Assembly (NCBI RefSeq): GCF_000003815.2 | Contig: NC_049991.1 | Location: 14,740,154 to 14,804,153, forward strand | From: Branchiostoma floridae | Lineage: Eukaryota; Chordata; Leptocardii; Amphioxiformes; Branchiostomatidae | Direction of reading: 5' to 3' | Length of the DNA: 64,000 nt | Part shown: piece by piece, positions 5,655 through 41,871 of the stretch | Numbering within the stretch: position 1 is the stretch's first letter | How the letters are laid out: every line of letters starts with the position of its first letter | Translations under genes and position numbers: made by a program | Notes under the pieces: model-generated | What the model was told of the DNA's origin: nothing | Seen by the model: the letters and a program-made list of their open reading frames with translations, nothing else | The model's database searches: none

Positions 5655-6860
5655 TGTGAGGAGTAAGGGATAAGTGTAATATTGTAACCTGTTAGTAAGA
5701 GTACTTAGTTGTGAGGAGGGAAAGAGATGAGTGTTATATTGCAACCTGTAAGAGTAGTGAGGCGGTTAGAGATAAGTGTGATCATATCAGTGTAACCTGT
5801 AAGAGAAGTGAGGAAGGGGATAGAGATGAGTGTTATACTGTAAACTGTAAGAGTAGTGAGGGGGTGGAGATGAGTGTTATACTGTTAACTGTAAGAGTAG
5901 TGAAACTNNNNNNNNNNNNNNNNNNNNNNNNNNNNNNNNNNNNNNNNNNNNNNNNNNNNNNNNNNNNNNNNNNNNNNNNNNNNNNNNNNNNNNNNNNNNN
6001 NNNNNNNNNNNNNNNNNNNNNNNNNNNNNNNNNNNNNNNNNNNNNNNNNNNNNNNNNNNNNNNNNNNNNNNNNNNNNNNNNNNNNNNNNNNNNNNNNNNN
6101 NNNNNNNNNNNNNNNNNNNNNNNNNNNNNNNNNNNNNNNNNNNNNNNNNNNNNNNNNNNNNNNNNNNNNNNNNNNNNNNNNNNNNNNNNNNNNNNNNNNN
6201 NNNNNNNNNNNNNNNNNNNNNNNNNNNNNNNNNNNNNNNNNNNNNNNNNNNNNNNNNNNNNNNNNNNNNNNNNNNNNNNNNNNNNNNNNNNNNNNNNNNN
6301 NNNNNNNNNNNNNNNNNNNNNNNNNNNNNNNNNNNNNNNNNNNNNNNNNNNNNNNNNNNNNNNNNNNNNNNNNNNNNNNNNNNNNNNNNNNNNNNNNNNN
6401 NNNNNNNNNNNNNNNNNNNNNNNNNNNNNNNNNNNNNNNNNNNNNNNNNNNNNNNNNNNNNNNNNNNNNNNNNNNNNNNNNNNNNNNNNNNNNNNNNNNN
6501 NNNNNNNNNNNNNNNNNNNNNNNNNNNNNNNNNNNNNNNNNNNNNNNNNNNNNNNNNNNNNNNNNNNNNNNNNNNNNNNNNNNNNNNNNNNNNNNNNNNN
6601 NNNNNNNNNNNNNNNNNNNNNNNNNNNNNNNNNNNNNNNNNNNNNNNNNNNNNNNNNNNNNNNNNNNNNNNNNNNNNNNNNNNNNNNNNNNNNNNNNNNN
6701 NNGGAGAGTGTAAACTGTGAGAGTTAGTGGGGAGGGGGATAGAGATGATCATTTATGATCATGATGATTATTTATGATTATTTATGATCATGATGATTAT
6801 GATCATCATGATCATTATGATGATGTAACCTATAAGAGTAGTGGGGAGGGGGAGATGTGA
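5655..6860. repeat. ~48 bp minisatellite with assembly gap
   Basis: Tandem units of the form TAAGAGTAGTGAGGAGGGGA, then TAGAGATGAGTGTTATAYTG and TAACCTG, at 5655-5907 and again at 6703-6860. They flank an N run at 5908-6702. The gap is therefore probably more of the same array. A short ATGATCATGATGATTAT low-complexity patch lies at 6745-6825. Confidence 0.85.
5908..6702. other. assembly gap inside minisatellite
   Basis: 795 N flanked on both sides by the same ~48 bp tandem unit. Any ORF bridging the N run is an artefact. Confidence 0.99.
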
Positions 6861-15225: not shown

Positions 15226-15286
15226 TAAACGTGTGGGGGCGAGTATGAAAAGTTGGGACGACTTTTCGTCATTTGATAAGAAGAAA

Positions 15287-15462
15287 AAATAAGATGCACA
15301 TAGTTTGGGTAAGCTGTCCTTGGGCTGTTTACGTCTTTTTCATAGTTTAAACATTCCATCCCTTTGTTAAAAGGAGAAAAACAAGATACACATAGTTTTG
15401 GTAAGCTGTGCTTGGGCTGTTGACGTCTTTGTCAGATTTTAAACATTCCATCCCTTTGTTGG
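15287..15462. repeat. tandem duplication of ~87 bp before NMRAL1
   Basis: 15287-15370 and 15374-15462 are near-identical: CACATAGTTTKGGTAAGCTG, then TTGGGCTGTTKACGTCTTT and TTTAAACATTCCATCCC. The second copy runs into the acceptor of the NMRAL1 coding exon. Each copy carries a GGTAAGC donor-like word. Confidence 0.85.
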
Positions 15463-15483: not shown

Positions 15484-17359
15484 ATGCGGAAGCTGATAAC
15501 CGTGTTCGGCGCCAGCGGCAACCAGGGCGGCGGGGTGGTTCGTGCGCTGGTGGACGACCCGGGCTTCGAGCTGAGAGCTGTGTCGCGGGACCCGAACTCT
15601 GACAAGGCTGCCTGGCTGCGCAAACTTGGCGTCGATGTCGTCCAGGCGGACTATAATGACCCCGAGAGTCTGGAGCGCGCGCTGAACGGCGCGTACGGCT
15701 GCTTCGTGGTCACCGACACCGAGTGGGACAGCGACGACCCTCTTCAACAAGAGCTGATCCATGGACAGAACGTCGCGGACGCGTGCAAGAAGCAGGGGGT
15801 ACAACACGTGGTGTTCAGCGAGCTGCTGCACGTGAAGAAGGCGATCGGGATCTCCGCCAGACACTGTGACGCCAAGGGGCATATATCGGACTACATGAAG
15901 CAGATCGGACTCAACAAGACCGGCATCATCATCCCGTTCTACTTCGAGAACCTCCTGACAACAATGATCCCCAGGAAAACTGGCGATAACACATTTGCAT
16001 TAGGTAAGTACTACCATTGTACTAGGAGACAAATTCACCACTTGTTTTAGTTATATAAGGTCACAACGTAACAAACCTGAATGCCACTGCAGGCTCAAGG
16101 GTTACATGAATAGGACTGAAACAACATAATTGAGACCAGCTCAACTGCTCAATATTTGAAGAGTAAGGACTAACTGAACCAAACAGGAAAAACATGGGTT
16201 AGCCCCATTCTCTTCCTCATTAGATTGAAATGGTTTACACCGGTAAGGGACCTTACTCTCTTCGGTAAGTGTCACATTGCATTAAATACAAAAAAGAGCC
16301 AACTCAAATTTTCCCGGTTTATTCTTTTTCATCCTGGTCCTAACAACATACGGGAAACTTATCTTAGGGTATACAATTATATAATGCTGGTTGTTTTCTT
16401 TTCGCAGGAATTCCGTTCGGAGACAAACCTATGCCGGGAATAAGTGCGGAAGACATCGGGCTTGTTGTGGGCTCGTTCTTCCGCGACTCTGCGGCCTGGG
16501 GCGGGAAGAGTCTGGGCGTGGCGGGGGACATCATGCTAGTCAAGGACTACGCCAAGGTCCTCTCCAACAACCTGGGACCGAAGAAGTTTTTCGACGGCCA
16601 GGTTAGCATACAGAAACCTCGATCTGCCATGTTATGTTTATTTGTATGTCTCCTGAATCATGATCGCCGACATCCTTACATACTACATGTTGATAAAAAG
16701 CTTGCCAACAGGATCCTCGTACTAACCTTACAGTTGACAATTGATAATTGACTGTTACGTACCTTGCTTGCAGCCATATAAGGCAGTCTCTATTGGGCAC
16801 AATATGCATATGTTGATAATAATATCAGTGCATCCTCACTGGAGAATGTATATGTTCCTGTAACTGAATAACACCAGCCAGTGGAGTGTTGGTGTTCTTG
16901 GTATAATAAATTTTATATCAGGAAAGCCCGAAACGTCCAGCTATACAAGGGTGAGTCATTCTGCCTACCCCCAATACGATTGCCCTTCTTCCTACCCCAA
17001 AAACGATTGCCTATCTCCCTACCCAAAAGACGATTTCCCTCCTTCCTACCCCCAAGACGACTGCCCTTCTCCCTACCCCAAAGACGACTGCCCTTCTCCC
17101 TACCCAAAACTTCACGAGTGCCCTTGACCTTTTACACTCTAACCCCCCTTTCCCCTCTCTTCAGGTGACGGTACAACAGGTCCGGGACCTACAGCCCTAC
17201 TGGCCGGCTGCGGTGGACCTCGCCAACATGTACGAGTTCATGATGCGGGCCAGCCTGCCGTACAGCAAGGACCGCACGCTGAAGCTGTGCCCCGCCGTCC
17301 GGAGCTTCGACCAGTGGGTGGCGGACAACAGGGATAAGTTAGACGCCGCTTTTAATTAG
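15484..17359 (+). CDS. NMRAL1: NmrA-like family protein (NADPH sensor, HSCARG)
   Basis: Complete three-exon gene: 15484-16003, 16408-16601, 17165-17359 (stop TAG 17357-17359). Phases 1 and 0 join exactly, giving 302 aa; the human protein is 299. It belongs to the NmrA-like atypical SDR family, Rossmann proteins that bind NADP(H) and act as redox sensors in the cytosol rather than as clear dehydrogenases. The Rossmann loop GASGNQGG is at residues 9-16. RAVSRDP fits the 2'-phosphate side of NADP binding, and YFENLL matches the conserved PCYFENLL region. The last exon has DLANMYEFM and FDQWVADN, matching DLANMFRF and LDQWL in human NMRAL1. The first ATG follows an acceptor-like CTCCTCTTAG by about 9 bases, so a 5' UTR exon is likely upstream. 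A minisatellite lies in intron 2. Confidence 0.93.
16964..17108. repeat. ~28 bp pyrimidine-rich tandem repeat in NMRAL1 intron 2
   Basis: Five to six units of the form CCCTACCCCAAAGACGACTG followed by CCCTTCTC. The array ends just upstream of the acceptor for the last exon and may act as an extended polypyrimidine stretch. Confidence 0.85.
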
Positions 17360-26353: not shown

Positions 26354-29300
26354 TTAGACAGGCTGAGCCTTCACAGCTTGTTCGGCGGGGGCCGGGGTCT
26401 GTCCCCCGGCAGGGTAGGCCGGGCCCTGCTGGCCAGGCGGCGGCAGGTAGGCTGGGGGAGGCCCGCCCAGCGGCTGGATGTACCCGGCCTGGGGGTAGCC
26501 ACCCGGAACTGCTGTAAAGACAAAACGCATTAATGTAATCGTTGAAGAGATTCATTAGTCACGTTTGTTCACAGTTAATAGAATTTTTCATCAATCTCTC
26601 GGGGGAACTAGGTCACTCCGTGATCAAGATGGACTGATAGCCATCGAAAATTTGGAGGTACGTGTGCTCACATTTAATAACAGTCACTGATTGATGAAAA
26701 ATTCTATTAACTGCATCCATGTAATATTTGTTGTCTCGTACAGAGTGTAACGCTAGTTCACCTTTATCCGCGGAGTGGACCTAAATCTGCTGTTTTCAAG
26801 TGATCTTGGGATATGGTAGTTTCAAACTGCAGTATTTGTCCGTCGACTAGATTTTACTGCTTTCACTGCTTACCCTGTTTTGAAACAACGGATACAGGTT
26901 ATTCCGCGGATAAAGGTGAACTACCGTTAAGTCATTCACGGTAGCAGTTCAGAAAATCACTAAAAGTACATGGTGTCTTCTATATTTTCCATGAGATAGG
27001 CTGGATGTATTCCTTGTAGCAAATCAATGCAATAAAGTTTGTATAACTTGATATCACAATTAAATGTTGCTATGACGTATTTATTTTGAAACATTTTTCA
27101 GAACTATCTAAAATGAAAGCGGGATGACTATACTGACTAACTATGATGTTCAGGGGTGATGTTAGGCTTAGGTCCCATTTGAAACTGGGGCCCGACGGGG
27201 TGGCTTGCGGAAATAAAAAAAATAAAAGTGCTTACCAAGGAATATAACGTTACACAAATTATGCTCATGAATAATTTTGTTTACGTTCTGTGTGTTTTGT
27301 TGCCTTTTATTTCACTTTTTTTCCGAAAACTATCCGGCCGGGCCCCGGGTTGGGAATTGGGACCTAAGCCTTACCTGGGTTGTTGACACTGGGAGGCATC
27401 TGGGCGTACGGCAGGTTGGAAGGCTGCATGATCACCACACTCGAAGCCGGCTAGAACAACAGACTTGCCATTAGATAATATCGCACTGACTTGATTAATC
27501 TATGGAGGACTTCCGTATCTAAATATGAATGACATTCTCGCACGTATCGAGTATTGTTCATTAACAAAAAAAAGTTTGCAAAGAAGCTGCAAAATGAGCA
27601 AATATGATCAAAAGATATGTCTAGCACGACAGTCTCAAGAACAAGTGTAAATCCTCTTGGAAGCTCATCTGTGTTGGTAGTAATGACAGTGCAATTCTAA
27701 ACTTTCTTCCAACACAAAGGTATACACGGATCAAATTTTCGTGCCACGTTTGACCAATTACTGACGTCACGTATCCACAAGATCACGTGTTATCAACTCT
27801 GTAACTCTAGCGAGTCTGAAGTAATTGGTCGTCAGTATTGATCCTAAAGAAATCGATCCGCAAAGTGAAAATTTGATCCGTGTATACCTTTGTGTAGGAA
27901 GAAAGTTTATCATTGTACTAAGTGTTAATCCTGACTGATAAACGACGTCAGTGGTTGTTGAAAATTTGATCCGTGTATTCCTTTGTGTTGGAAGAAAGTT
28001 AAAAATTGTACTAAATCCTGCCTAATTGAAATAAGAAACGACCGAGCGCCCCACCTGCTGGTCGCAGCAGGAACAGCCCACCACACAGCCGACGATGGAC
28101 GAGGCGAAGCACAGGATCATCTCCACCAACCCTAGCGCCAGGCAGGTGTAGTGCAAGGCGATCATGGTCGAGCAGTTCCTGTGATATTAATGGAGGCATA
28201 GGGATGTAACAGCCACTAAGCAGTAAGACTTCAAGTCATCCAAAGCCGAGCTGTCAGGATCATCCTACAACTGAAACGACGATCCAGTGTCCAGGACTTA
28301 CACACCAAACTCAACTGGAGGTACTTGATGCAGCGCCAAAAGGAACACACTGATCTTAGAGTAAATCAGATATATTCTGTAACAAAGTGTACGAGAAGTA
28401 TAACTATAGGAGATGGAGAATACAGAGAATGCGAATCCCCGCTATCTTGAATGCTGTAGGGCATAACACACAGTTGTCCCAGGCATTGTATAACTCTCAG
28501 TGACCACTTTGCATGCATTGCGAGGTTTCTGATCTTAGAGCAAATCGGATATATTCTGTACGCACAACTGTAGGTGTCTGACAATACAGGAGACTACTTA
28601 CGAATCCCCACTCTCCTGACTGCCGTAGGGCATGACATCACCGTTGCCCCAGGAGTCGTAGCCCTCGGTGACGAAGACGTTGTTGAAAGCGCCCGAGAGG
28701 GTCTGCTGTAAGTCCACCACAAGGCAGGCCCAGGTCACCGCGGCGCCCGACACGCTGACCTGGGACAGCGCCACGAAGATGCCGATGATGCTCAAGGTCA
28801 GGAAGGCTGGGGTCTGAAGAACAGATACAGACACAGATTGTCATAACTCGCGTAAACCAGACATCGTGAATGAAATTACGAGCTAGCCAGAAAGGCTGAA
28901 AGTCTTCGGTCGTAATTATGTCACTGGAAAATAGAGGTATATTGTTTTTGGTTTGCCAGTCTCTACATTTGTGTTGTGGTCAGCATAACGTTAGAACCTT
29001 TGGATGAATTGTGATTATGTTTGGTTGGTGAGTAGTTCAGATAAAGATGAAGGTCAAGGTCAATTATGGCTCTCCTGGCGGCTGTTCTTGGTACTGCTTT
29101 CGCACATCTTTTGGTGTATATAGTGATAAGCCACAGAAAAGGCACTATGGGCCATTTTCAAGTCTTAATCAAGTCTTTACCATACGGGATTCGAAACCCC
29201 GACCTTGAAACATTACATAGTTTAGGATAACGTTCTGGATATGACAGCTATAACTTACGAATCCGGTAGGAGCGCCCTCCCGCTTGAAGTTCCTCCCGGC

Positions 29301-30479
29301 CATGATACCCATGGTTCCTGTGATGACCACCTACAGAAGCGGGAAAATATCCAATCAAATTCTCCACTAGCCTAGTAAGGCTAACGTCACATTTCCACAA
29401 AGTACTAGTACGATATAAAAGTCAACAAAAACACAAAACGGACCAAAAAATAATCCAACAGCGCGTCTTGTGCATATCTATTGGCAAACATCTTAATTCT
29501 TCGTTTCCCCAAACAGCCAGGTCGGGACCCGGGTAGGAAATGTGACGTAAGACTAACCATTTTCAACTGGCCGGCTTAGGCTTAGGCTTAGGTCCCATTT
29601 CCGAACGGCGGGGCCCGGCCGGGTTGTTTGCGTAAACGAAAAATAAAAGTGTTCACCGAGGAATATACACAAATTATGCTTCTGTCTGATTTTTTGTACT
29701 GTGTGTGTGTTTTGTTGCCTTTTTTTAAGTGAATAACCCTGACTTAAAAGCAAAAACGTGACATTTTCAAGGCAGCATGTCGACCGCAGGTACATTCTCT
29801 AGATCTAGCTTGACCTTTACCGTTTGACAGGTTCTCATGAGTGGGCGGGCGAAAGTATGTATGGATTATTATGGACTTACATACGTAATGTTTATTGACA
29901 TAACAAAAGTGCAGCGGCTTTCGTACATATGGGGTACACATACAAACATGTGGATACTTCTTAATGAAGTAACAAACATATAAAAATGAAAATATCGACA
30001 TTTACACTTCTAGTTCTTAGGTCTAAATATTATTCAATATATTTACCTACCTTTACACNNNNNNNNNNNNNNNNNNNNNNNNNNNNNNNNNNNNNNNNNN
30101 NNNNNNNNNNNNNNNNNNNNNNNNNNNNNNNNNNNNNNNNNNNNNNNNNNNNNNNNNNCTTAAGGTAAATAGCGTTTATAATATCGCGAACTTTAACTTT
30201 ATTCGAATTGCAACAGGTGCAATACAATGTGGACACTAGGCAGCTACCCAGCTGATGTACAGATACATTTACTGTACAAAAAATGAACAATATCGTGAAC
30301 AATCCATGATGCAGTGATCGACTTACAAATGCTCCAGCCCAGATTGGCCCGCTGATGCGACTGTAGTAGTCCGCCGGGAAGGCTGCGGCGGCGGCGATCC
30401 CCAGCACCGTGCTCAGGGCGCCCAGGCTGACCAGGGCCACCCCCAGCCCGAACATGCCGTGGCCGTTGTTCTTACACAT
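26354..30479 (-). CDS. four-transmembrane MS4A/CD20-like protein, paralogue A
   Basis: Six coding exons on the minus strand: 30327-30479, 29259-29330, 28602-28813, 28055-28178, 27375-27450, 26354-26511 (stop 26354-26356). Phases 0,0,2,0,1 fit, giving 264 aa. Four hydrophobic segments are visible: ~10-34 (LGVALVSLGALSTVLGIAAA), ~41-62 (SGPIWAGAFVVITGTMGIMA), ~77-107 (FLTLSIIGIFVALSQ...) and ~150-182 (ALGLVEMILCFASSIVGCVV). A ~35-residue loop with an NCS sequon precedes TM4. The cytoplasmic tail is cysteine-, then proline-rich (PPPAYLPPPGQQGPAYP). The glycine-rich first half and the SGPIWAGAF...TGTMGI motif recall MS4A/CD20 tetraspans (PF04103); this family call is inference. The start was chosen by alignment with paralogue B, whose first exon is also 51 codons. 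An upstream in-frame ATG exists at 30522-30524, but an acceptor lies between the two. Confidence 0.85.
26572..26713. mobile_element. MITE-like foldback with perfect 25 bp inverted repeats
   Basis: 26572-26596 (CAGTTAATAGAATTTTTCAT then CAATC) is the exact reverse complement of 26689-26713, with 92 bases between. Non-coding, in intron 5 of paralogue A. Confidence 0.85.
26756..26921. mobile_element. TA-flanked MITE, GTTCACCTTTATCCGCGG family, copy 1
   Basis: Begins GTTCACCTTTATCCGCGGA and ends with the inverse TCCGCGGATAAAGGTGAAC. It is bordered by TA on both sides (26754-26755, 26922-26923). The interior word GTTTCAAACTGCA and the ends recur at 60638-60931. Length 166 bp. Confidence 0.88.
27165..27370. 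mobile_element. GGCTTAGGTCCCA-terminated MITE abutting a splice donor
   Basis: Inverted ends GGCTTAGGTCCCA / TGGGACCTAAGCC with flanking TTA duplications (27162-27164, 27371-27373). Length 206 bp, non-coding. Its right edge is 4 bases from coding exon 27375-27450 of paralogue A. Confidence 0.85.
27687..28005. mobile_element. MITE with ~55 bp inverted ends and a duplicated right end
   Basis: The left end (27687-27740) contains AACTTTCTTCCAACACAAAG, then GTATACACGGATCAAATTTTC. Its inverse occurs twice: at 27867-27914 and again at 27960-28005. Non-coding; lies in intron 4 of paralogue A. Confidence 0.85.
29374..29556. mobile_element. MITE with ACGTCACATTTCC ends
   Basis: The left end CTAACGTCACATTTCC is matched by the right end GGAAATGTGACGTAAGAC, in inverse orientation. 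Non-coding; in intron 1 of paralogue A. Related ends occur at 17404. Confidence 0.7.
29585..29735. mobile_element. truncated copy of the GGCTTAGGTCCCA MITE
   Basis: GGCTTAGGTCCCATTTCC and GGGGCCCGGCCGGG, then AATAAAAGTGYTYACC..GAGGAATAT, as in the 27165-27370 element. The right inverted end is missing. It is preceded by extra GGCTTA repeats. Confidence 0.7.
30059..30158. other. assembly gap (100 N)
   Basis: Exactly 100 N in intron 1 of paralogue A; probably a gap of unknown real size. Confidence 0.95.
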
Positions 30480-30594
30480 TGTGGTGAACTTTAAGGGTTT
30501 GTCCTTAACCCTAGGAAATGTCATGAAGTCAATAACAGATTTAAATCAAAAGGAGCAAGAACAAGTCATGAATATATGATACATGTGTTTCTTT

Positions 30595-31800
30595 TTGTTA
30601 CCCAGCACCGTGCTCAGAGCGCCCAGGCTGACCAGGGCTACCCCCAGCCCGAACATGCCATGGCCGTTGTTCTTACACATGGCGGTGAGCTACCCTAGGA
30701 CTGTCGAAGAATTTCTTGAAGTCAATAACCAATTCAAAGTAAGGTCATGAACATATGATACATTTTTTGTTACCCAGGACGGTGCTAACGACACTAAGGC
30801 TGACCAGGGCCACCCCCAAATCGAACATACCATGGCTGTTGCTCTTACACATGGTGGCGAACTAACCACCCTAGGACTGTCGGAGAATTTCTTGAAGTCA
30901 ATAACAAATGTAAATCAAAAGCAGCAAGAACACCTGATGGACATTTATGATACGTGTATTTCTTTTTGTTACCCAGCACCGTGATCAGGGCGCCCAAGCT
31001 GACCAGGGCCACCCCCAGCCCAAACATGCCATGACCGTTGTTCTTACACATGGTGGCGAGCTACCCTAGGACTGTCGGAGAATTTCTTGAAGTCAATAAC
31101 AAATTTAAATAAAGGTTATGAACATATGATACATGTACATTTTTTGTTACCAAGGACGGTTGTCAGGGCGCTCATGCTGACCAGGGCCACCCCCAGCCCG
31201 AACATGCCGTGGCCGTTGTTCTTACACATGGCGGCGAGATACCCTAGGACTGTCGGAGAATTTCTTGAAGTCAATAACAAATTTAGATAAAGGTTATGAA
31301 CATATGATACATGTATTTCTTTTTGTTACCCAAGTCAGTGCTCAGGGCGCCCAGTCTGTTGTTCTTACACATGGTGGCGAACTTCAAGGGCTGGTCCAAC
31401 CCTAGGACTGTCAGAGAATGTCGTGAAGTCAATGACAAATCAAAAGCAGTAAGAACAAGTCATGAACATATGGTACATGTACATCTTTTTGTTACCCAGC
31501 ACCGTGCTCAGGGCGCCCAGACCGACCAGGGCCACCCCCAGCCCGAACATGCCGTGGCCGTTGTTCTTACACACGGTGGCGACCTACCCTAGGACTGTCG
31601 GAGAATGTCTTGAAGTCAATAACAAATGCAATCAAAAGCAGCAAGAACAGGTCATGAACATATGATACATGCACATCTTTTTGTTACCCAGGACGATGCT
31701 CAGGGCGCCCAGCTGCAGGCTGACCAGGCTCACTCCCAACCCGAACCTGGCCTAGCAATACAGCTAAGCAGGACATGGTGTGACCTACCCTAGGACTGTC
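30595..31800 (-). repeat. tandem array of seven exon-1 fragments of the MS4A-like gene
   Basis: Units of ~170-200 bp repeat the first ~79 coding bases of paralogue A exon 1 plus ~100 bases of upstream sequence. Start codons (minus strand) lie near 30680, 30852, 31051, 31230, 31365, 31574 and ~31776. Units 1-4 keep an open frame beginning MCKNNGHGMFGLG or a close variant. Unit 2 has several substitutions, unit 5 an internal deletion, unit 6 GTG in place of ATG, and unit 7 is degenerate. Where the true exon continues GTGCTGGGGATCGCC, the units read GTGCTGG followed by GTAACAAAAAG (units 1-3 and 6 closest), so each ends in a donor-like GT. Confidence 0.85.
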
Positions 31801-31943
31801 GGAGAATTTCATGAAGTCAATAAAAAATTTAAAACAAAAGCACCAAGAACAGGTCGTGGACATATGATACATCTTTTTTCTTTTTGTTCCTCGCACCCTT
31901 CTATACTTCTATTCCCAATGCGAGACCAGATCACTCATACTTG

Positions 31944-36146: not shown

Positions 36147-38378
36147 CGTACATGTAATTAATGTATATTAGATAAAACGACAAATGAATAATCTCACAAT
36201 CATGATAGGTACTGCGGATACACGTACACATCACCTGCGTCTTAAGGCAACAAAGAAGCATGACAGCAAATTAAGAAGCAGAAAGAGAGATAACAAGACG
36301 TTTACCTGAGCTGAGCAACAGGTCGCCGTGGACAAAATGTCCGCCACCTGTAGCTGGCAGACCTGCAGCTCTAGTGCGTAGTTGGTAGCCTATCCGGTGT
36401 GCGCCCTAACCAAGCGTGCAAAATATCAACATGAGCGCAGTGGCAATTGTCGGCCAATGGCGCCACGGAATAGTTAACTCGATTTGCGCAGGAGAATATA
36501 CATACATTTGTATGTAAAACAAGGTATTTTTTACCTGGCCTTGGGTCACTGAGAGTCACTGGAAAGGAGGTGGAGTGGTAAATGTTCCACAGCCCATTTT
36601 TCTCAAGGGACCCTTCTTTCTTTCTTGACATGGAGGAAACTTTAAGGAGTTTTGATACCCGCGGCGTGCTCGTGGGAAATTTTTCAGATGATGCTTTTCG
36701 GTTGATGTGTTTCTTGGCCCCTCGTTAGAGATAGAGATAGGAAGGTAGTTTTCCTCTCTTTCGTTGAATCCAGAGGGTTAGTGAGAAACTTGACAAACGT
36801 CTTGCTCTGAGCTTGGTGGGAACCAAAAGGTTCTAGCGTCACTTCTATAGGCTGAGCAAATTGATATTGAATTTCATGGTCACTGGGGCTCAGATATTAC
36901 TTAGACAGAATTACTAGAGGTTTTGCCCTGGCTGTCTTGCTAATACAACATCGGCCAATTTTCAGATAGGATTCCCTTTTTTCATAGTAGACCCTTGCCA
37001 AAGTTATATGTATATCTACAACACACCTACGTCTTGAACTTAAAACACCATGTTCAATGTATTTGATATTATCCTTATACTGTACAGTCACACGAATCAT
37101 GACCACACTCTAGCGCTTCCTCGTTTAAAGTTTGAGGTAGTCATATTGCTCTATGCACGGAAGAGATTTTTTGTCGGCGAGTTCAATAACAGTCATCGCA
37201 GATTATATGGTGGCTTCTTTACTTATTCTTCATTTGCCCCCTTCGGATTGAAAACTTCAAGGCAAAGACTTCGTCAGTGAGAGCTGTTGTCCATTTGCAA
37301 GAGATACTGTCATTGACACACGACTTTCGACAGCACACGCATGTCAGGCACAACAAAATTTTGCGAGAGAGCCTAATTCAGGTTGTAAGAAATGTTTAAT
37401 GACAACGTAATGTTGCACATTCTGTGTACAATGATATATCCTTCAGTCTTGAGTAAAGATAATATAGTCAGTTTCAAGTTCAACATTCTCTCAAAGAAAG
37501 CAGTTCTATTTCAACCAATACAATGCTTTGAAGCTTTTGAAGCAATATTTGTGATTTCTAAATCGAGTAAAGAAGTCAATGATTATTCAATTTGTTGCAT
37601 AGCTATGATGCAAATATTGTGATAGTAGTTAAGCATAGAATACATCCTATTCTATAGACTTAGGTGATTTTCACTTGGGTAACAAAGTTAATGCAACATA
37701 ATAGCAGAAAATATCACTGAAAGGTCATTGCCTGGTTTGCATATGATTCTTGGAGCGACAACTCCGGTAACATATTTTCATGTATACTTGCAATTAGCCT
37801 TCGGGCATGAACTTGCAATACAGATGTTAATATTTAAAGATATTATTATTATCCCACTATGGCTTCAACAGAATTACATATGAAATTAGTCAAGCTGGCA
37901 ATCATTTAACCCACATCCATATTGAGATTCCAAATACGTGCTCAAGTCCATCATCGTTTACAGAAGACAGCAGTGGTAGGCTCTCAAAACAAAGAAACGG
38001 TTAGGTCACCGCCACTGTTCTACAATGTTGGTACGTATGAATGTCACTTTGTTATGAATTGTTCACGATATATATTACGATAAACGCACAAAAGCTGTTC
38101 ACATTTCATTCCGCTTGCTCTAAAGAATTTGCTACTTTCCGTTCGACAGATAAATTTAACTTCATTCTGGGAGGCGATAACCCTTACTTACTGTGTACAA
38201 ATAGCCAAAAGAACCAATAGTGTTAATGACACACTAGACTCAACATGTTGACTTTTTCATATCCATAGATATTCATATATGTCTGTTTATATGTACTGTA
38301 AGAAGTTGCTATAGGCCGTACGAAAGTCGCTGTACTTTTGTCGTGTCAATAAAGATTTTGCATGTCCAGCTGTCCACT
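36147..38378. other. intergenic, no gene seen
   Basis: No credible exon on either strand. It holds one retrotransposon tail (37781-37852). Confidence 0.5.
37781..37852 (+). mobile_element. retrotransposon tail family B, copy 3
   Basis: CTTGCAATTAGCCTTCGGGC, then ATGAACTTGCAATACAGATG and an ATTATTATT tail. AATAAA is mutated to AATACA. Confidence 0.6.
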
Positions 38379-41300
38379 CTAGACAATCTGGGTCTTCTGT
38401 TCGCCCGGGTAGGGCGGGCCCTGCTGGGCAGGCGGCGGGTAGGCTGGGGGTGCCCCGCCTGGCTGCTGCACGTACCCGCCCTGTGGGTAAGCGTAGGCGC
38501 CCGGCGGCACTCCTGGCGACGAAAAAAACGATTTTCGTCAGAGACCAAGTATTTAATTGGTACGAAGGCAACGTATTCCACATGGTCCAAAATCTTTCAC
38601 AGTTCAGAAAGGACAGTTAAGCCAGCAATAGATACAATCTTCTGCCCGGTTTCGGTGTCCAGCCCTATAGCGATACGTGAACCTGCTGAATAGTCTTAAG
38701 TGTGGTAATGCTGAATCTCCCTCTCTACAGCTCCAAGTTATATAATTCCGTTGATTGACACAGGCTCTCTCAATTAGCATCTAATTGAAACAAGGAACTC
38801 AACTGTGAGGTTTCCATCGATTGAGTGGCATTCCTAATCTCCAAGCAGATCCTACGGTAGCATAAGGTAGTATCAAAAGCAGAGGAGTGAAGCTGCCTTA
38901 GGAGTGTGTTTCGCTACCGGGCAAATGTACACCTCTTGGCTGCCTACACTCCATGGCCAGTTTAGTGCCATCTTATGCCATCGTAAGATCTACTTGGAGA
39001 TTATGACATTCCTACACTGTTCCCAGTGCACATCTACAAACACCAAGAAGTGAAAGTTACCTGTGGTGACGACCATGTTGGCGTTAGGAGGAGCCTGCAT
39101 GAAGACGACACCCTGCGTCTGAGGCTGTAGGGTAAGAACACCGCGAGATGCTTAGTCTTCAGTGTCTTAAGTACTTCATTCATCACAAAACAAAACTTAT
39201 TGAGAGCCACTCAATTAGTTACATTGACGGTGGCTGGGTTCTGATGACAATTGTCTGTTCGACTTTGTCATTAAAAGTTTTAGGTTGTACCAATCAGGGA
39301 AGCAATTACAAGGGAGCTCCATAAAGAAATCGTTATAGGAAAGAAGATTTCAGTGTGACTTCTGGCGTACTTTGATAGATTTCGGTACAAAAATATCAAA
39401 GGAATCACATGTCACAGATCAATTCATAAGTCAGCAAACGGATGAAATTCACAGCACAAAGGTATTTAAAGCTCCAGCTGTTGAAACGTACCTAGACTGG
39501 GTGCCATCATTTTTACAAGGAGCAAGACGGTGCCTCTTTAAACTAGATAAGATGGCACCCAGGCTAACAAGCAAATACCAATAAATCTGAGGATTACTAC
39601 ATTTACAGGTCCGATTATATATGTCTCACCTGCGGAGCACCGCAGTTACAGCCGCCGACCACACAGCCGACGATGGACGAGGCGAAGCACATGACCATCT
39701 CTATGAACCCGAATGCGATGCAGGCCCAGTGCATGGAGGCGGCAGACTGGCACACGCTGTGTGTGTTAAAGAAAAACATGCTTGTCTCATGAACTAAGAA
39801 CACATAGTCTGTGTGTTAAGATTAAGCGCACAGGGTTTGATATGTTCTTGTGTAATATAACTTTGCAGAAGTAAGAATTAAAACTTTTTGTGGCTCAAAC
39901 AGTTTGAAGTTGTATTGGTCATTTCAGGACTCTAACCCGATTGTCATGTACTAGTATCCTGTGTCCCAAACTGACGACAGCGGATGTCGGACGAATAGGC
40001 CTTTTTACCCAACTCGAGCCATGGTTAATCAGGCAAACGCCCTGAACGTCAAGACCCTGAACCCATCAAAACGTTGACCAAGGTTTTAGGCCGAATCGTC
40101 TAATCTACAAGCAGATCCTACATTTGTATGGTAGTATAAGATATTATAAGCTGTCAGAGGAGTGAAGCCGGCCTAGGAGTGTGTACGCTATTGCTACCGG
40201 TGCCCGCCTGATACATTCCCTTTGGCCGGCTATACAGTAGTATACTCCTTGGCCAGCTTTGATACTATCTTAGGATCTGCTTGGAGATTAGAATCGTTCG
40301 GATTCGACGGAGTCACTTACAGACACAGACACCTTGGAAGCCAGTGACTATCTTGAGAAATGGCGAGAATTGAACAAATACCTAGCAGAGCTATCACCAT
40401 GTTGCTTATTGACGGCGTCTGCCACCTCATCCACGAAGCACCACCCCAGGTAGGAGCCCCCCACGCCGTTGACGCTCTGTTGGGCGATCGTCACGAAGAT
40501 GCCCACAATGCTCAGCGCCATGAAGGCTGGGATCTGGGAAAAGACGTTTCAGGCTGTATTTTCTAATGTCAGCCAGTGCTACACAAACTGTCGCTGTTGG
40601 TACTCTCCAAGCAGATGTTGGTGGGAAAAATCGTGACCTTTTTCTTAATTGCCGTATTTTTCGACCAGCCTCCCCACCAACTAAAAGTATAAGGAAAAGG
40701 TCACAATCACCAACATCTGCTTGGAGAGTAGCTGTTGGGGGCTTATTGTAGCCCCTATAGAAGGCGCTCTGGGCCTTTTCCTGTCTTCTGGGCACAAGCG
40801 ACCCAGTACAAAAAAAAGATCAACAAAAGTGTATTATTAGCCCAAAAGACGAAAAAACAGAGAGCCTGCTATGGGGCGGCAGCACAAGTGACCCAGTACA
40901 AAACAGAACAACTAGCAAAATTGTATTGTAATATTATAAGCCCAAAAGACGGAAAGAGACCCAGAGAGCCTGCTGTGGAGGCTAGGCTTATTGGGCCACC
41001 TCCACGACCAGTGGAAGGCGGAGGGCTGCTGGAAGCATCAGGCTATTTTTCATGCCAGCACCAGGAATGAAACGACAATTGCGCAATGTGTAATGTGTAA
41101 TGGTAAATGATATTTGTTAATTTTAACCTTCTCCCTGCTGACAACCGTGTAACGGTTAAACCAATGGAAAATCGGTAGCCAAAGCGCTACTTCAGTTGTT
41201 CAACAATTAGTTTGACGGAAATGGTACTTACGTATCCGTTAGGTCTGCCATCCTGGAGGCCAAAGTTGCGCCCGGCCATGATACCCATAGCTCCAGTCAG

Positions 41301-41871
41301 AATGACCTGGAAGGAGAAAAATTATGTTTACCGTAGGAAACCAAGCAAGCAAGCAACCAACTAACTAACCAACCAACCTGACCAATCAATCTAATAACGT
41401 TGCTGACTGCTTTGTCATACCGCATGGCACTGTAAACTTTACTGCCTTTAACACTATATAATACATGTACATGTACGCCATTTTCTAGGCAAATGCACTT
41501 GATTTATGTCTAGCAATGATATGATAGTACGGACATGAACTTTACTGAAATTTCCATCAGATTAATAGTTGGGCCATGTTCTGCGGATGTCGGGTCGGAC
41601 CGAATCCCCAAAGTTACCCTACTAACCTGCTAGTCTTAGTTTCCTAATATTTGTATTTGACAAATGTACCATTGTTATTTTAGAATAAAGGAAAAAAAAA
41701 GTATGGACATGAACTCACGAATCCCCCTGCCCAGATGGGTGCGCAGATGCGGCTGATCCCCTCCCAGCTGAAGGCCGCGGCCGCCGCCACCCCCAGGATG
41801 ACACTGAGGGAGCCCAGAGACACCAGGGTGATGCCCAGACCCAGCAGGGCCTGCCCGTTACTCTTGCACAT
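38379..41871 (-). CDS. four-transmembrane MS4A/CD20-like protein, paralogue B
   Basis: Six coding exons on the minus strand: 41719-41871, 41232-41306, 40382-40533, 39630-39756, 39061-39124, 38379-38512 (stop 38379-38381). Phases match paralogue A exactly (0,0,2,0,1), giving 234 aa. The first exon starts MCKSNGQALLGLG and contains ICAPIWAGGF. Exon 2 gives VILTGAMGIMAGRNFG, nearly the same as A. TM4 (CIAFGFIEMVMCFASSIVGC) is almost identical to A. The third exon is 60 bases shorter than in A, so the loop before TM4 is 20 residues shorter. The tail is proline-, tyrosine- and glycine-rich (PPAYPPPAQQGPPYPGEQK). The ATG at 41869-41871 was chosen because the frame extends upstream only through GTG and the paralogue starts at the same point. 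The MS4A-like family call is inference, as for A. The two genes are head-to-tail duplicates. Confidence 0.85.
38835..39003. mobile_element. CTCCAAGCAGA-family MITE
   Basis: ~42 bp inverted ends: TAATCTCCAAGCAGATCCTA then CGGTAGCATAAG, with the inverse CTTATGCCATCGTAAGATCT then ACTTGGAGATTA. It is flanked by TGGCATTCC and TGACATTCC, a near-perfect 9 bp direct repeat. Lies in intron 5 of paralogue B. Confidence 0.85.
39488..39572. mobile_element. short element with CTGGGTGCCATC ends
   Basis: CCTAGACTGGGTGCCATC and the inverse GATGGCACCCAGGCTA, 85 bp apart at the outer ends. A similar single terminus is at 23850 (TAGCCTGGGTGCC). In an intron of paralogue B. Confidence 0.65.
40099..40282. mobile_element. 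CTCCAAGCAGA-family MITE
   Basis: Ends TAATCTACAAGCAGATCCTA / GGATCTGCTTGGAGATTA, flanked by GAATCGTC and GAATCGTT (7 of 8 identical). In intron 3 of paralogue B. Confidence 0.85.
40601..40731. mobile_element. CTCCAAGCAGA-family MITE with perfect 8 bp target duplication
   Basis: Ends TACTCTCCAAGCAGATGTTGGTG / CACCAACATCTGCTTGGAGAGTA, flanked by GCTGTTGG on both sides. The long inverted ends continue inward (GGGAAAAATCGTGACCTTTT pairs with AAAAGGTCACAAT). In intron 2 of paralogue B. Confidence 0.92.

Follow-up and report, generated by a model that had tools for sequence, protein, structure and literature searches.

A tandem array across the start-codon exon of an MS4A/CD20-like gene of Branchiostoma floridae, probably a mirage

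A stretch of 64,000 nucleotides of Branchiostoma floridae DNA (contig NC_049991.1, positions 14,740,154 to 14,804,153; hereafter the window, to which all positions refer unless a related locus is named) carries on its minus strand, reading from 31888 to 30600, seven diverged, head-to-tail units of 166-203 bp, and the authentic first coding exon of an MS4A/CD20-like gene comes next. The array is very probably a mirage, that is located within a 5′UTR intron and removed together with it, and most likely serves no function itself. Nothing observed points to an effect on the protein of the gene.

Anatomy of the array and its host gene

Tandem Repeats Finder, self-alignment and alignment of the units confirmed the seven tandem exon-start units that an earlier, sequence-only reading of this DNA had described, with repeats of about the size given there and with the distal end at 31888 rather than at 31800. 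Tandem Repeats Finder scores on the array were 660 and 548, and self-alignment gave ~75% identity over up to 1347 columns (E = 0), values that rule out a chance origin. Each unit contains, in order, the probable 3′ end of an intron, an acceptor-like CCTAG|GG, a leader, a start codon and ~27 codons, with GGTAAC last, so that what has been copied is the 5′ flank, the start codon and the first 26-27 codons of the first coding exon. The array and the coding exons of the gene are as follows.

30600-31888, minus strand: whole array, from the proximal unit U1 to the distal unit U7
30600-30771, minus strand: U1, 172 bp; ATG at 30680; 27 codons, amino acids as in the authentic exon
30772-30970, minus strand: U2, 199 bp; ATG at 30852; open; 6 amino-acid differences
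30971-31148, minus strand: U3, 178 bp; ATG at 31051; open; 1 amino-acid difference
31149-31327, minus strand: U4, 179 bp; ATG at 31229; open; 3 amino-acid differences
31328-31493, minus strand: U5, 166 bp; ATG at 31372; internal deletion of 36 bp, in-frame
31494-31685, minus strand: U6, 192 bp; GTG (31574) in place of ATG; otherwise open
31686-31888, minus strand: U7, 203 bp; distal edge; frame-shifted and decayed; ATG at 31776; donor in phase 2
30327-30510, minus strand: E1, authentic first coding exon (coding part 30479-30327); acceptor-like CCTAG|GG at 30511/30510; ATG at 30479; 51 codons; donor GTAAGT at 30326, phase 0
29259-29330, minus strand: E2, coding (VVITGTMGIMAGRNFKREGAPTGF); phase 0 at both ends
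28643-28813, minus strand: E3, coding; 3′ end approximate
28052-28159, minus strand: E4 core, coding; limits approximate
26354-26509, minus strand: E5, last coding exon; proline-rich tail and stop; 5′ limit approximate

Each unit opens with the seam GG(T)AACAAAAA. An AT-rich segment follows (as in tttgttattgacttcaagaaattctccgacagtcctag), then a brief leader and the start, one version of which is ATGTGTAAGAAC. The unit ends after codon 26 in GG|GTAAC or TG|GTAAC, at the point where the authentic exon continues with GGGATCGCC. Among the units, the long leader of the authentic exon is present in U5 alone. GGTAAC, which had been noticed at the end of several copies, terminates all seven, and the proposal that at least four units keep an open frame is borne out by U1-U4, each with 27 open codons including the ATG. 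The phase 1 that had been assigned to the unit donors holds for six of the seven (U1-U6), the donor of U7 being in phase 2. The repeated exon, which the earlier reading labelled exon 1 and coding exon 1, is first in the coding sequence but, on comparative evidence, probably second in the transcript.

In the flank, identity of the units to the authentic copy was 0.82-0.87 (aligned bases). Coding identity was 0.90-0.95 for U1, U3, U4 and U6, 0.80 for U2, 0.75 for U7 and 0.60 for U5, the low value of U5 being due to its deletion. In four of the seven units (U1, U3, U4 and U6) the coding part is closer to the authentic exon than the flank is, a point that counts against a mirage without function. 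U7, at the distal edge, is decayed, yet the interior units U2 and U5 are also divergent, and tree supports ranged from 0.58 to 0.82. The non-coding parts of the units show 78-94% pairwise identity, that is, 6-22% of aligned flank positions differ, and indels are unit-specific. An assembly artefact was considered, as an N gap lies nearby (30059-30158), but divergence and indels of this kind are not the product of a wrongly repeated contig end, and an artefact is next to inconceivable. Other tandem arrays are located within the window at 997-2138, 5707-5903, 15285-15460 and 16959-17109.

The window protein matched positions 2-156 of the 156 in the Pfam model of the MS4A/CD20 family (PF04103), but with a score of 22.5-23.2 bits, which is under the cut-off of 27.9. 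The closest paralogue, C6, scored 40.5 bits, above the cut-off, and covered the whole model; a further paralogue, C13b, scored 22.0. The MS4A/CD20-like name therefore rests on the family and not on this member alone. From exon 1 alone, no CD20 match was obtained in Pfam at any of the six loci tried, the window locus included. A search of the PDB by sequence returned no relevant match, and a search of a plasmid collection returned no match, which is uninformative. A second MS4A/CD20-like paralogue lies in the window at 38379-41871 on the minus strand (exon 41871-41719), and its exon 1 is without an array.

A putative 5′UTR intron and the likeness to known mirages

Comparison of upstream DNA identified a block of ~250 bp upstream of the gene that is common to the window and C6, and a search of the genome with this block gave two matches only, the window and the C6 paralogue. 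At its downstream end the block reads CTCAG|GTAAACGTCTTG in the window, where the G of the donor is position 36305, and TTGAG|GTAAACGTCTTG at C6.

36306-36561, minus strand: putative promoter and 5′UTR exon, matched at C6 only; donor CTCAG|GTAAAC, with its G at 36305

A conserved promoter-like region (36181-36660, minus strand) has a GCCATTGG box at both the window locus and C6. The predicted 5′UTR intron measures 5,795 bp in the window and 2,103 bp at C6. Acceptor-like sites, defined as a YAG preceded by 13 bases of which 9 or more are pyrimidines, were present within 60 nt upstream of the ATG at 19 of the 27 related loci with an identified start, compared with 1081 of 5662 random 60-mers drawn from the same loci, a difference for which the P of 1e-8 is too small because the loci are related. 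The definition was missed by 8 of the 27, including C6 and C13b (8 of 13 pyrimidines each), both of which have, by eye, a plausible AG before the ATG; these misses take slightly from the strength of the mirage reading. Also by eye, ctcctaccgtcctag at one relative (L007) resembles the ctccgacagtcctag of the units. Taken together, the conserved donor at 36305 and the acceptor-like sites of the relatives place the array probably at the 3′ end of a 5.8-kb 5′UTR intron. The simplest reading would be a non-coding first exon, an intron of 5,795 bp and an ATG in the second exon, with each unit probably crossing the intron/exon boundary, its intron part being assigned on comparative evidence. Retention of the array in the mRNA would put 38 ATGs ahead of the authentic start codon.

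The units are tandem, imperfect and minisatellite-like, they span a boundary (of which the exon part is observed and the intron part comparative), and the genome is that of a cephalochordate, as in the mirages of amphioxus. The earlier suggestion of a minisatellite born from an exon stands in substance; more exactly, the origin is an intron/exon boundary, and the kind has already been named in amphioxus. In the globin genes, according to the cited sections of PMC3087553, each 150-160 bp unit of the BflGb6 mirage combines the 3′ end of the intron with the 5′ part of exon 2, the two haplotypes carrying 6 and 3 copies; the BflGb9 mirage has a 157 bp unit at the 3′ boundary of exon 2. In these same sections many globin units retain splice signals, cluster edges escape homogenisation, and the origin of mirages is called unclear. 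The present array is like both in having minisatellite-like tandem units across an intron/exon boundary, whereas its boundary is probably that between a 5′UTR intron and the start-codon exon, so that its units carry start codons, and its units are of 166-203 bp as against 150-160 bp. A scan of nine globin exons of the genome gave two arrays, one of ~158 bp x 4.2 on the acceptor side (L047) and one of 157 bp on the donor side (L043), which resemble the published BflGb6 and BflGb9 mirages in period and side.

Likenesses extend to other genes. Adh3 mirages are also tandem repeats at exon-intron boundaries, with shorter units (10-72 bp), and are described in parts of PMC3087553 and PMC3902484 as unstable in length, with somatic instability and undisturbed splicing. 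PGBD5 and troponin C share with the array repeats that include splice sites, although in other genes and at other boundaries, and in PGBD5 with fewer copies. The PGBD5 repeats are imperfect, tandem, of 60 and 108 bp and contain splice sites, the 108-bp repeat being a triplication, and the cited passages of PMC3902484 state that Adh and troponin C mirages yield no aberrant mRNAs. In potato RdRp, as described in part of PMC4974935, an intron-exon structure has likewise been duplicated, bringing acceptor signals and activating or creating a donor; any new intron in the window array would, by comparison, be a candidate only. Among the amphioxus papers of a limited literature collection, no title or abstract described such arrays in MS4A-like genes.

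Under the mirage reading, a first duplication would have joined the exon just past codon 26 (CTGG|G) to intronic AACAAAAAG ~170-200 bp upstream. The copies would then have been raised to eight, counting the authentic one, presumably via unequal exchange or slippage, and the copy at the distal edge would have decayed after the expansion. On the precedent of published mirages, splicing would most likely run from the donor at 36305 to the acceptor of the authentic exon (30511/30510) and excise the seven units, whose start codons and frames would be inherited and not maintained. A DNA search of the 513-Mb genome with the array gave, among the best candidates scored, two matches, its own locus and the C6 exon; by the same search no second array of such kind was found and the locus is present once in the assembly examined. 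There is no array at the C6 and C13b paralogues, and the window array is therefore probably derived.

This absence from C6 and C13b also speaks against the array as an intronic regulatory element, such as an enhancer derived from the AT-rich CATATG/ACATGTA segment, the copy number of which would tune expression. The non-coding part is retained in all units, with the pairwise identity given above (aligned bases), as suits such an element, but homogenisation by itself accounts for this similarity and the unit includes the start of an exon, not just a regulatory motif. A regulatory role is accordingly a very unlikely reading of the array.

Splicing of the units and tests for selection

Alternative starts were the other possibility raised by the sequence-only reading, with the units acting as alternative first coding exons that yield protein variants. 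In five of the seven units the ATG persists and the ancestral frame runs on as far as the donor, and the peptide of U1 is that of the authentic start. However, the authentic donor at 30326 and the acceptor at 29330 are both in phase 0, and since the unit donors are in phase 1 or 2, all seven unit-to-E2 joins are frame-shifted. No selection was detected on the units, as described below. Donor phase and the absence of selection together rule against alternative first coding exons, which are left with hardly any probability.

When joined to the authentic E1 acceptor instead, U1-U6 yield frames of 20-32 codons that terminate upstream of the true ATG. U7 (31686-31888) joined to 30510 gives an in-frame extension of 40 residues, composed of frame-shifted and leader sequence and probably due to chance. 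Pairing with U1 RNA was -5.0 to -6.2 kcal/mol for the unit donors and -4.9 and -5.2 kcal/mol for the real E1 and E2 donors, respectively, and the weakest of the unit donors, that of unit U4, falls between the two. GT sites at -6 kcal/mol or better make up ~4.5% of the 3805 on the same strand, and six of the seven unit donors are among them. As the unit donors pair with U1 RNA about as strongly as the real donors, or more so, splicing into the units may occur, which is a further point against the mirage reading. By consensus, the unit donors match at 5 of 9 positions, versus 6 of 9 for the real E1 and E2 donors.

Such splicing would make the units cassette exons between the 5′UTR exon and E1, the 20-32-codon upstream ORFs of which would lower protein output. 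CCTAG|GG, resembling an acceptor, and a donor GGTAAC occur in every unit, with the next acceptor 79-102 bp away; the frames of U1-U6 (with GTG in U6) stop ahead of the real start as noted, and start contexts (GCCACCATG or similar) are good in most units. The unit donors are, on the other hand, without a G at +5, in addition to their 5 of 9 consensus matches, no constraint is seen on the coding part, and Adh, troponin C and globin mirages are reported without disturbance of splicing in the cited sections of PMC3902484 and PMC3087553. Cassette use is for these reasons considered improbable, and the mirage reading is preferred.

The tests for selection covered U1-U4, U6 and E1; U5 and U7 were excluded because of indels. 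A naive count of all variants found 17 of 29 to be synonymous (P = 0.0008). This excess vanished on spectrum-matched shuffling, in which variants private to one unit were taken and each mutation type was redistributed over sites with the same base: 13 of 24 private coding variants were synonymous versus 11.0 expected (P = 0.22, or 0.24 with CpG matching), with low power. The third positions of E1 are G/C-rich, and the private variants are mostly changes away from G and C. For some of the synonymous differences (ACC GTC versus ACG GTG), the C6 paralogue has the same state, which probably makes them older than the units. In the same six sequences, private variants numbered 24 in 405 coding positions and 17 in 440 flank positions (P = 0.20). 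With the spectrum-matched result and the similar coding and flank rates, the units appear to drift freely, 24 variants giving little power. Neutral codon change across the copies, which the sequence-only reading had named as an outcome that would reduce the array to a decayed repeat, is thus what the synonymous-variant tests found, at that low power.

Related loci and exon edges

A protein search of the genome with exon 1 (E up to 1) gave 34 matches, comprising five array units and 29 loci, 11 of these with E < 0.01 and 18 with E 0.01-1. As exon 1 alone gives no CD20 match, the family label of the weaker loci (E 0.01-1) rests on shared exon sequence. Using a boundary criterion specific to the family, tandem duplications across the start codon and upstream flank were identified at 10 of the 29: the window gene, L038 and L029 (both C7), L035 (C12) and six genes of the C158 cluster (L027, L030-L033 and L037). 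All but the window gene and L038, i.e. eight of the ten, are among the weak matches (E 0.01-1). In this count the most upstream in-frame ATG was used, which is not the true start at C13a, L019 and L038 (with the true starts, C13a and L038 still count as positive), and at L021 and L022, which are without an in-frame ATG, the start of the match was used. Because six of the ten positives are in one cluster, independent origins are far fewer than ten, and are estimated at about four or five.

The periods of the arrays at related loci range from 39 to ~520 bp. At L038 (5584-6999) there are 35.6 copies of 39 bp, reaching the real start, with each unit containing an acceptor-like CTATAG, an ATG and the next four codons, and the reading frame of the gene stays open throughout the array. 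Coding maintenance was considered for this array, because one uninterrupted frame runs through the 35 units into the authentic start, and was rejected: by eye, most of the distinct substitution types are amino-acid-changing, and the openness of the frame therefore does not speak for its use. L029 (4189-4999) has ~10 copies of 62-73 bp across an acceptor-like site and the ATG, and the observed units read ATGGCGTAA, so that the frame closes at once. L035 has periods of 369 and 522 bp with 67-82% identity. At L027 and L032, the exon part of the unit ends in SVTLGVA, no more than a few codons from the point at which the window array breaks (STVLG). L025 (3069-3637; C19) and L036 (3091-3419; C158) have tandem duplications at the 3′ side of exon 1, possibly donor-boundary mirages.

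A uniform scan was positive at 6 of 29 related loci, 2 of 9 globin exons and 2 of 30 tetraspanin matches (a sample from 41), a comparison that does not show an excess special to the MS4A/CD20-like related loci. The two tetraspanin positives (L058 and L067; C4) are tandem duplications over the 5′ edge of the exon match, with periods of 251 and 99 bp, respectively. Exon edges were also compared with shifted positions, which were intervals of equal length 900 or 1200 to either side, or at +600; the -600 shift was omitted from the main comparison because the mirages themselves extend there. One related locus, evidently L029 (Ns in the exon), was dropped at offset 0. Tandem duplications were present at 10 of 67 exon edges versus 16 of 331 shifted positions, an approximately threefold excess (P = 0.005) in a post hoc comparison of related loci; with the -600 shift included, the controls were 23 of 398 (P = 0.017). 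For globins and tetraspanins alone, with all six shifts, the counts were 4 of 39 versus 3 of 228 (P = 0.0099). The exon-edge excess is to be treated as a lead, since the loci are related, the globins entered the set as a positive control and the window locus is itself included.

Earlier reports of mirages, in the cited parts of PMC3087553 and PMC3902484, concern single amphioxus genes or small families, and the window case adds the start-codon boundary. What is new is the duplication of the same boundary at 10 of 29 related loci together with, as a lead, the hint of a preference for exon edges, and the main interest of the array lies in this recurrence and this hint. It is conceivable, though doubtful, that mirage formation, rather than being random birth of minisatellites that touch genes by accident, is aimed at splice boundaries, repeatedly and independently at this first-coding-exon boundary of the family, and supplies ready-made cassette exons and introns at a high rate; the targeting might, for example, have to do with transcription, with R-loops or with the GC steps of exon edges. 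If the exon-edge excess were to hold in a full survey, direct tests would become possible of how mirages arise and of the part proposed for them in intron gain.
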